Made by a program: the position numbers and the translations under genes | Part shown: positions 18,069 through 20,772 of the stretch, piece by piece | How the letters are laid out: every line of letters begins with the position of its first letter | Numbering within the stretch: position 1 is the first letter of the stretch | Notes under the pieces: generated by a model | What the model was told of the DNA's origin: nothing | The model's input: the letters and a program-made list of their open reading frames with translations, nothing else | Databases searched by the model: none | From: Gimesia sp. | Lineage (GTDB): Bacteria > Planctomycetota > Planctomycetia > Planctomycetales > Planctomycetaceae | DNA: 64,000 nucleotides | Direction: 5' to 3' | Assembly: GCF_040219335.1 (NCBI RefSeq) | Contig: NZ_JAVJSQ010000034.1 | Location: forward strand, 1-64,000

Positions 18069-18153
18069 GCCCAAGTGGCGGAACTGGCAGACGCGCTAGA
18101 TTCAGGTTCTAGTGTCCGTAAAGGACGTGGAGGTTCGAATCCTCTCTTGGGCA
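18069..18153 (+). tRNA. tRNA-Leu (anticodon CAG)
   Basis: The acceptor stem GCCCAAG pairs with CTTGGGC. The anticodon stem CTAGA/TCTAG encloses loop TTCAGGT, giving anticodon CAG. A long variable arm follows, as expected for a class II leucine tRNA, and the T arm carries GGTTCGAATCC. The gene is followed by ACC then T, so the full 3' CCA is not encoded and must be added enzymatically. It decodes CUG, a codon used heavily in this window. It stands alone and has its own terminator downstream. Confidence 0.96.
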
Positions 18154-18166
18154 CCTTAATTTAAAA

Positions 18167-18197
18167 GGACTTACGACGTTGTCGTGAGTCCTTTTTT
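18167..18197 (+). terminator. Rho-independent terminator of tRNA-Leu
   Basis: An 11-bp stem (GGACTTACGAC with GTCGTGAGTCC, one mismatch) with a GTT loop is followed directly by six T's. It sits 14 nt after the tRNA. Confidence 0.85.
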
Positions 18198-18440
18198 CAT
18201 TTCCCACCTCCCCATCAGCCACAACAGCACTTCACTCCCGCCGACGTACAGTCATCATCAACCCGGGTTCTCACCGCCTCTGCCTCAAAAAACGGCATTT
18301 CCGAGAAAGACCTCCTGTTTTTAGAGCTTGCACCGGCCAGCGTCGTTTCAACCCGCCCCGAACGAAAAATACCTAAGCTGATTTTGGTATTGATTATAGC
18401 GTCACATGCATTCTTAACTGACAGACCAGGCCTCAGACTC

Positions 18441-18456
18441 TGGCACACCGCTTGCT
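18441..18456 (+). promoter_or_regulatory. Sigma-54 (RpoN) promoter of the DUF1559 gene
   Basis: TGGCACACCGCTTGCT matches the -24/-12 consensus TGGCAC-N5-TTGCW at every specified position. Transcription should start near 18467, leaving a leader of about 50 nt with GAGGAG six bases before the GTG start. A perfect 18-nt palindrome (18453-18470) overlaps the -12 element and start point. An enhancer-binding activator would be needed; its site is not identified. Confidence 0.8.
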
Positions 18457-18470
18457 TCATATATGAAGCA
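18453..18470. promoter_or_regulatory. Perfect 18-nt palindrome overlapping the sigma-54 -12 box
   Basis: TGCTTCATATATGAAGCA is self-complementary over its whole length. It covers the -12 element and the predicted transcription start of the DUF1559 gene. It could be a repressor site or form the very 5' end of the mRNA as a hairpin. Confidence 0.5.
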
Positions 18471-18516
18471 TTCTTTTAATTTCGTGTTTGTTCATCCCTG
18501 ATTTGAGGAGATCAAT

Positions 18517-19488
<972 letters not shown>

Positions 19489-19674: not shown

Positions 19675-20127
19675 TTAGCGACGGTAACGCCAGTCGCTGT
19701 TACTCAGACGATTCAGGTTATACAGATCCGAATCGTACGTACCACAGTCATACCGGTCATAGTGATCATAGTTATTCAGATTGGCTTTGAACGTGTTATA
19801 GTTCGTACGACTTCGGTAGTTGACGTCGTTAAACAGAGGCCGGTTCGAATAGGTGCTGTACAGGCTGTTGAGCCGATCGGTCAGCGATGAATTGTACGGA
19901 GCAGTTGTCCGGTAACGATCCAGGTAATCCCGATCATTGGCTCGATAGTACGAGTCATTATACCTCCGGTCATACCGGCTGGCTGAGTAATCGTAGCGAG
20001 TATTGTTGTTGGACTTCGAGTTGTAATAGCTGCTGGTACCACAGAAAGGTTCTGCAGCAAAAGTGACATTACTTACGAAAGTCAAAACGGCCAGTGCAGC
20101 GAATGCGATTGCGAATTTTTTCATCAT
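19675..20127 (-). CDS. Small secreted Tyr/Asn/Arg/Ser-rich protein, unknown function
   Basis: 150 residues. A clear signal peptide (MKKFAIAFAALAVLTFVSNVTFA) is followed by a low-complexity mature part extremely rich in Tyr, Asn, Arg, Asp and Ser, with recurrent YDxRY, YNxS and RYDRY-like units and only two cysteines. No family recognised. The composition suggests a matrix, adhesive or wall-associated protein, possibly cross-linked through tyrosines; this is inference. Two consecutive ATGs exist; the second (20124) has better spacing from AGGAG. A near-consensus sigma-54 promoter lies upstream and a strong terminator downstream, so it is transcribed alone and convergent with the DUF1559 gene. 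Confidence 0.8.
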   Translation of the reverse strand: MMKKFAIAFAALAVLTFVSNVTFAAEPFCGTSSYYNSKSNNNTRYDYSASRYDRRYNDSYYRANDRDYLDRYRTTAPYNSSLTDRLNSLYSTYSNRPLFNDVNYRSRTNYNTFKANLNNYDHYDRYDCGTYDSDLYNLNRLSNSDWRYRR

Positions 20128-20190: not shown

Positions 20191-20206
20191 TGCACTCGCC
20201 GTGCCA
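20191..20206 (-). promoter_or_regulatory. Sigma-54-like promoter of the Tyr-rich protein gene
   Basis: On the minus strand the sequence reads TGGCACGGCGAGTGCA, matching TGGCACG-N4-TTGCW with one mismatch (G for the first T of the -12 box). GG and GC are at the required 10-nt spacing. Transcription would start near 20180, giving a leader of about 55 nt with AGGAG before the start. Confidence 0.65.
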
Positions 20207-20386
20207 AACATTCTGCGATTACCCTTATGTCATTTATCTATATAGACTTATAATTTTTAGACACATCATTTCAACCACACACAAGTGTGTCATTATTGCA
20301 ATACATGGGAATATATTACAATCTTTTTGACAACACGTTAATTTGCCATGCATGTGATATTGATGGCGCCGGCCCGGAGAGAGAAA

Positions 20387-20772
<386 letters not shown>

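Follow-up and report, generated by a model that had tools for sequence, protein, structure and literature searches.

A conserved sigma-54-type promoter and a candidate enhancer shared with nitrogen genes precede a DUF1559 pseudopilin gene in Gimesia

Results and discussion

The pseudopilin locus

The window analysed here is a stretch of 64,000 nucleotides that forms part of contig C34 of a Gimesia genome of 7.93 Mb. It encodes a protein in which PF07596 lies behind an N-terminal methylation motif, which makes it a DUF1559 prepilin-type protein. Upstream of the pseudopilin gene is a tRNA-Leu gene (18069-18155) with a strong terminator of its own at 18163-18195, which leaves the promoter by itself in a region of about 245 bp. 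The following features were assigned to the locus.

18281..18297, + strand: candidate enhancer TGCCTCAAAAAACGGCA of the form TGC-N11-GCA, 17 bp, of which 15 columns do not vary across 5 genomes
18441..18456, + strand: sigma-54 -24/-12 box TGGCACACCGCTTGCT, exact match, all 11 specified bases unchanged across 5 genomes
18453..18470, no strand: perfect 18-nt palindrome TGCTTCATATATGAAGCA, spanning the -12 box and the predicted start (about -14 to +4)
18467, + strand: transcription start predicted from the geometry of the -12 box, whose GC lies at 18454-18455
18505..18510, + strand: ribosome-binding site GAGGAG, assigned from the sequence and kept in all 5 aligned genomes
18517..19488, + strand: DUF1559 prepilin-type gene (family A), GTG start, 323 aa, PF07596 at 194.4 bits and N_methyl (PF07963) at 37.7 bits

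An earlier note on this DNA had reported an exact TGGCAC-N5-TTGCW box in front of a DUF1559 pseudopilin with a GTG start and GAGGAG, and all of these are present: TGGCACACCGCTTGCT has every specified base, with GG and GC ten bases apart. By the convention for sigma-54 promoters, the start was counted from the C of the -12 GC (18455).

Orthologues of the locus were recognised at the DNA level in 4 of the 16 congeners searched, namely G001 (94%), G005 (92%), G012 (89%) and G009 (77%). The protein family is far larger than this one locus. PF07596 has 133 matches in the window's own genome; 128 of them were used, the last five (fragments) being omitted, and 99 of the 128 carry the prepilin motif. 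To our knowledge, no signal or function has been established for any single DUF1559 member. For Rhodopirellula baltica, 74 DUF1559 genes have been reported; nine genes of this type were upregulated within the first hour under cold and salt shock, and 16 were downregulated under heat shock (PMC2754498).

Position and conservation support the sigma-54 box

An exact match to the box is weak evidence by itself. The window contains a single one, and matches with up to two mismatches number 29 with 33.9 expected, i.e. not above chance. The whole genome holds 8 exact matches and 4 to the reversed pattern, and the 17 genomes of the genus together hold 143 exact boxes compared with 78 for the reversed pattern, an excess of about twofold. 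These counts are what favours the view that the box and the palindrome are both coincidental and that the gene is read by another sigma factor. However, the conservation of the box, its enrichment before DUF1559 genes and its fixed offset to a TGC-N11-GCA site all argue against chance, and we consider this explanation extremely unlikely.

It is position and conservation that decide for the box. Three of the genome's 8 exact matches directly precede prepilin-type DUF1559 genes. Within 260 bp upstream of the 99 prepilin-type genes, we found 3 exact boxes and 2 more with one mismatch; shuffles of the same regions gave 0.02 exact and 0.16 one-mismatch boxes, and the reverse strand gave 0 and 0. 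In the window and its four congeneric orthologues, all 11 specified bases of the box are invariant, compared with 99 of the 245 columns of the whole upstream region. The genome encodes a single RpoN (PF04552, 207.5 bits) and 15 sigma-54 activator domains (PF00158) above 190 bits. Together with the enhancer-like site described below, these results bear out the sigma-54 promoter reading of the earlier note: the promoter at 18441-18456 is very probably real, and the gene would be transcribed by RNA polymerase carrying sigma-54.

Control by sigma-54 as a rule for DUF1559 genes was rejected, as a box with at most one mismatch precedes 5 of the 99 genes and thus marks a subset only. Among 79 named planctomycete DUF1559 loci, the box was exact at 1, had one mismatch at none and two mismatches at 4; the reverse strand had 1 with two. 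Sigma-54 promoters and activators have reportedly been predicted before in a planctomycete, Pirellula species strain 1, by Studholme and Dixon in 2004.

Across the genus, the 143 exact boxes gave 133 distinct contexts (6 were left out and the other 4 were presumably merged as identical), of which 25 lie before prepilin-type genes, 65 in other intergenic positions and 43 inside reading frames. By N-terminal sequence, the 25 prepilin-type genes fall into five families: A, that of the window gene, with 5 members, B with 9, C with 6, D with 3 and E with 2. Proteins of families A and B share 51% identity.

A candidate enhancer at a fixed distance from the box

A run of 16 columns with at least 14 of them invariant occurs in only two places of the family A promoter, at the box and around 18281-18297. 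The second place holds the 17-bp sequence TGCCTCAAAAAACGGCA, which starts 160 bp upstream of the start of the box, or at about -186 to -170 from the predicted transcription start. Its TGC-N11-GCA ends are kept in all five family A genomes despite a changing interior. The putative enhancer thus falls, at a conserved fixed offset, within the 80-200 bp upstream expected of sigma-54 promoters.

All five family A promoters and all nine of family B carry the site, 13 of these 14 at -160 to -162 and one B promoter at -153, but none of the 11 promoters of families C-E does. Among the 65 other intergenic exact-box promoters of the genus it occurs in two, both times beyond -230. When spacers of 4-20 were tested, a spacer of 11 was found in all 14 A and B promoters and any other in at most 2. 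Apart from the site and the box, A and B promoters have little recognisably in common; given 51% identity of their proteins, they may nevertheless share ancestry and not be independent. Stretches of the own genome yielded five pairs of site and box at 150-170 bp, including a possible third target at C4:181954 (two-mismatch box, site at -164); two of the others look like chance.

The same site precedes amt and glnA

We then scanned the own genome with the pattern TGCNYNAWWANNNNGCA, built from the A and B sites, which gave 22 matches at 19 places (8 matches for the reversed pattern). Besides A and B, these places include the upstream regions of a glutamine synthetase gene (glnA, PF00120) and an ammonium transporter gene (amt, PF00909). 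The other matches are less telling: 17 of the 19 places, two of them being A and B, are neither amt nor glnA, several lie inside genes, most have no box with up to three mismatches 40-320 bp downstream, and most make no obvious sense.

For amt, we compared 15 of the best 16 loci of the genus, L461 being omitted as partial. The site is present in 15/15 orthologues, at -160 (14) or -159 (1) from a sigma-54 box of the form AGGCACAnTnTTTGCW. A spacer of 11 is the sole one found in all 15 promoters, the next being 7 (6/15). A second TGC-N11-GCA site lies at -129 or -128 in 14 of the 15, whereas A and B promoters have one clear site each. No single fact of the analysis weighs more than the 160-bp offset common to amt, A and B.

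The glnA promoter has the site in 14/14 orthologues, 28 bp upstream of a GG-N10-GC element. This is too near the box for a classical looping enhancer, and the box itself, TGGTATATGTTTTGCA, can also be read as the extended -10 of another sigma factor. A second glutamine synthetase paralogue has no TGC-N11-GCA site in the 14 loci examined (16 loci, 2 incomplete ones left out).

The 17-bp form TGC-N11-GCA is also that of the E. coli NtrC box, given as TGCACCAnnnTGGTGCA (PMC8743547), and in Salmonella NtrC is listed for glnK-amtB and glnA (PMC4987338). The interiors of the sites found here, such as CTCAAAAAACG and CCAATAATCAG, lack the enterobacterial inner bases ACCA...TGGT, and they are more A-rich in A and B than in amt. 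The amt promoters carry this site at the offset seen in the pseudopilin promoters, and the glnA promoters carry one of like form, which makes the nitrogen regulator the probable activator.

A different signal, such as surface contact or envelope stress, might instead be read by the activator, the promoter and enhancer being real and the likeness to the amt/glnA half-site due to convergence or cross-talk. In other bacteria, pilins under sigma-54 are controlled by PilSR (PMC6058289), this genome offers 15 activator domains that score above 190 bits, the A/B interior is more A-rich than that of amt, and other scan matches have no visible link to nitrogen. The offset common to amt, A and B, and the presence of both core nitrogen genes among only 19 scan places, speak against such a signal, which we regard as unlikely. 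We therefore favour nitrogen status as the input.

TGC-N11-GCA sites were also noticed elsewhere in the own genome. One (L402, C4:571112) lies between a sigma-54 activator gene without a receiver domain and an aspartate decarboxylase gene; a tandem pair (L398, C3:45984 and 46011) precedes an oxidoreductase gene with no clear box; and one (L413, C31:40334) is located 123 bp before a box with two mismatches that belongs to a circularly permuted ATP-grasp gene, the site being within 1 kb downstream of the family D pseudopilin at C31:38713. Divergent from amt at L415 lies a gene that was judged groEL-like by eye and has its own sigma-54 box, with one mismatch (TGGCATGATGATTGCA).

The palindrome over the -12 box

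The perfect 18-nt palindrome that the earlier note had placed over the -12 element and start point is indeed there. It is the sole perfect palindrome of at least 14 nt between 17900 and 20400, and the whole window has three of at least 16 nt. One palindrome of 18 nt per 64 kb is unremarkable by itself; in 1.16 Mb of the own genome there are 4 with a length of exactly 18 nt and 5 that are longer, and a Markov control has 1 of 18 nt. By contrast, none of 2000 dinucleotide shuffles of the stretch beside the box produced nine perfect pairs.

The palindrome is identical in the window and three congeners, all of them close species. In G009 it reads TGCTTTATATAGAAACCA, with 7 of the 9 pairs kept, one of these changed on both sides, and two broken. 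The comparison of orthologues proposed in the earlier note thus gave a divided answer: the box is found in 5/5 genomes, the window included, and the perfect palindrome in 4/5. Outside the box, 10 of 14 palindrome columns are conserved, and 16 of 32 in the leader. When two mismatches are allowed, 4 of the 17 genomes have the palindrome at this locus, and the own genome has one further copy, with two mismatches, at C19:115107; the palindrome stands at no other known sigma-54 promoter of the 17 genomes. We rejected it as a shared operator on account of this confinement.

The earlier note had suggested a dedicated repressor site. A dimeric repressor bound over -14 to +4 could block the sigma-54 polymerase or the melting of DNA and so provide a second input. 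The nine perfect pairs lie exactly over the -12 box and start, were matched by none of the shuffles and are identical in four species, and one pair in G009 has changed on both sides. Inverted repeats also lie near the start in the family B, D and E promoters of the own genome (arms of 7, 7 and 6; P = 0.0045 without A, a post hoc value). These repeats, however, have neither sequence nor exact position in common with one another, family C has none to speak of (arm of 3), and the few pseudopilin boxes from other genera have arms of 2, 4 and 4. Given in addition that no other known sigma-54 promoter has the palindrome within 2 mismatches, that two pairs are broken in G009 and that the four species are close, an operator is conceivable here but improbable.

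The earlier note had offered an mRNA 5' hairpin as the other possibility. The 18 nt would fold at -7 kcal/mol if both arms were transcribed (1 of 200 shuffles is as good), and a terminator scan lists the palindrome with a T-rich tail, so that one might imagine either a hairpin that protects the mRNA or a weak terminator that stops transcription running on from the tRNA gene. The geometry disfavours both. A 5' hairpin is unlikely because a sigma-54 transcript from about 18467 would start inside the right arm and leave the left arm untranscribed; the leader from 18467 is not unusually structured (z -0.40). G009 has lost pairs, a strong terminator already follows the tRNA gene, and on the + strand from 18000 up to the palindrome the scan gave no sigma-70-like promoter. 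A role as RNA is thus a poor fit, and we hold it to be very unlikely. Altogether, the palindrome is real and looks secondary; whether it has any function seems rather doubtful to us.

Gene-specific inverted repeats near the sigma-54 start were also noticed at other pseudopilin promoters (L180, L247, L314, L197), e.g., AACTGTTGCAACAGTT over the -12 box in L197. Arms of at least 6 occur in 13/27 pseudopilin promoters of the genus, 5/56 other sigma-54 promoters, 18/247 control windows and 19/182 windows upstream of further DUF1559 genes. In the own genome, the arm is 5 at the dnaK promoter and 4 at that of secA; genus-wide, 3 of 15 dnaK promoters reach an arm of 6, and none of 13 secA promoters exceeds 5. 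Among 47 boxes of other genera, the pseudopilin boxes recognised have no such repeats; two of them were flagged by script (L354 is doubtful; shuffle P = 0.93) and L380 was recognised by eye. Inverted repeats as a general trait of sigma-54 pseudopilin promoters are therefore suggestive within the genus and are not claimed, since the trait was noticed before it was tested, the orthologues are non-independent, and the few boxes from other genera lack it.

The convergent gene and other sigma-54 boxes

Downstream of the pseudopilin gene lies a convergent gene with a sigma-54-type box of its own.

19675..20127, - strand: open reading frame for a small tyrosine-rich, probably secreted protein, 150 aa, with homologues in 16 of 17 genus genomes
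20191..20206, - strand: sigma-54-type box TGGCACGGCGAGTGCA of the small protein gene, one mismatch

The small protein has no Pfam match. GG and GC of its box are kept at 17/17 homologous loci, 13 of which have one mismatch and 4 two. The leader of the gene looks strikingly conserved across the genus, and directly upstream of the gene is a bacterial class A RNase P RNA (20390-20765, - strand, 299.7 bits). An ACAC-N6-GTGT dyad at 20276-20289, before the small protein gene, recurs in 5 close species; as a common enhancer it was rejected, being absent before the 90 intergenic exact boxes examined.

Elsewhere in the genus, conserved sigma-54 boxes precede dnaK (15 contexts), secA (13) and a CsbD-like gene (L320, L321, L198). 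Boxes of other genera (L347-L396) precede genes that were named by eye as groEL-like (7) and dnaK-like (2). Chaperone genes thus seem to be served by sigma-54 in this bacterial family.

A proposed nitrogen-responsive pseudopilin promoter

Taken together, the site, the box and their spacing lead us to propose that the window pseudopilin is probably controlled by an NtrC-like activator and sigma-54 in response to nitrogen status. The activator would bind the 17-bp TGC-N11-GCA site at 18281-18297. DNA looping and ATP hydrolysis by the activator would then open the sigma-54 RNA polymerase held at 18441-18456, and transcription from about 18467 would yield a leader of about 50 nt followed by the pseudopilin, which would be produced in nitrogen shortage. 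The palindrome would lie within the DNA to be melted (about -14 to +4), either as a neutral feature of the lineage or as a local protein site, and not as an RNA hairpin.

The proposed switch resembles the enterobacterial NtrC/sigma-54 system of glnK-amtB and glnA in having a 17-bp TGC-N11-GCA site far upstream of a -24/-12 box and amt and glnA among the genes concerned. It differs in the inner bases of the site, in a DUF1559 pseudopilin as target with one clear site before it, and in that the activator here is predicted. A second parallel is PilS-PilR control of pilA in Pseudomonas aeruginosa, where sigma-54 and an NtrC-family activator likewise switch on a type IV pilin-like gene (PMC6058289); here, however, the site is common to nitrogen genes, and DUF1559 proteins are distinct from PilA. 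As a type of switch this is familiar, and its novelty resides in target and regulon.

A computational survey of sigma-54 regulons published in PLoS One in 2025 describes the predicted promoters of Planctomycetia as enriched for DnaK/DnaJ and, to a lesser extent, for COG2165, listed with T2SS components, and places control of ammonia permease and glutamine synthetase in Pseudomonadota (PMC12316311). Its main text contains no DUF1559, Gimesia, 'upstream activating' or TGCAC (PMC12316311). Within the parts covered of the open-licence literature on planctomycetes, prepilins, NtrC and nitrogen limitation, we found no report of a nitrogen-controlled DUF1559 gene.

On balance, we lean towards the view that the genus has a nitrogen regulon under NtrC and sigma-54 that uses a particular version of the 17-bp site at a fixed offset of 160 bp and would take in two or more DUF1559 pseudopilins together with amt and glnA, and that part of the pseudopilin repertoire would thus belong to a surface programme for nitrogen starvation. 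If this is true, it would outline a nitrogen regulon in a phylum in which the conservation of NtrB/NtrC is called limited in the 2025 survey (PMC12316311). Two DUF1559 genes would rise with amt on exhaustion of ammonium, which would provide a physiological handle on a hugely expanded planctomycete family.
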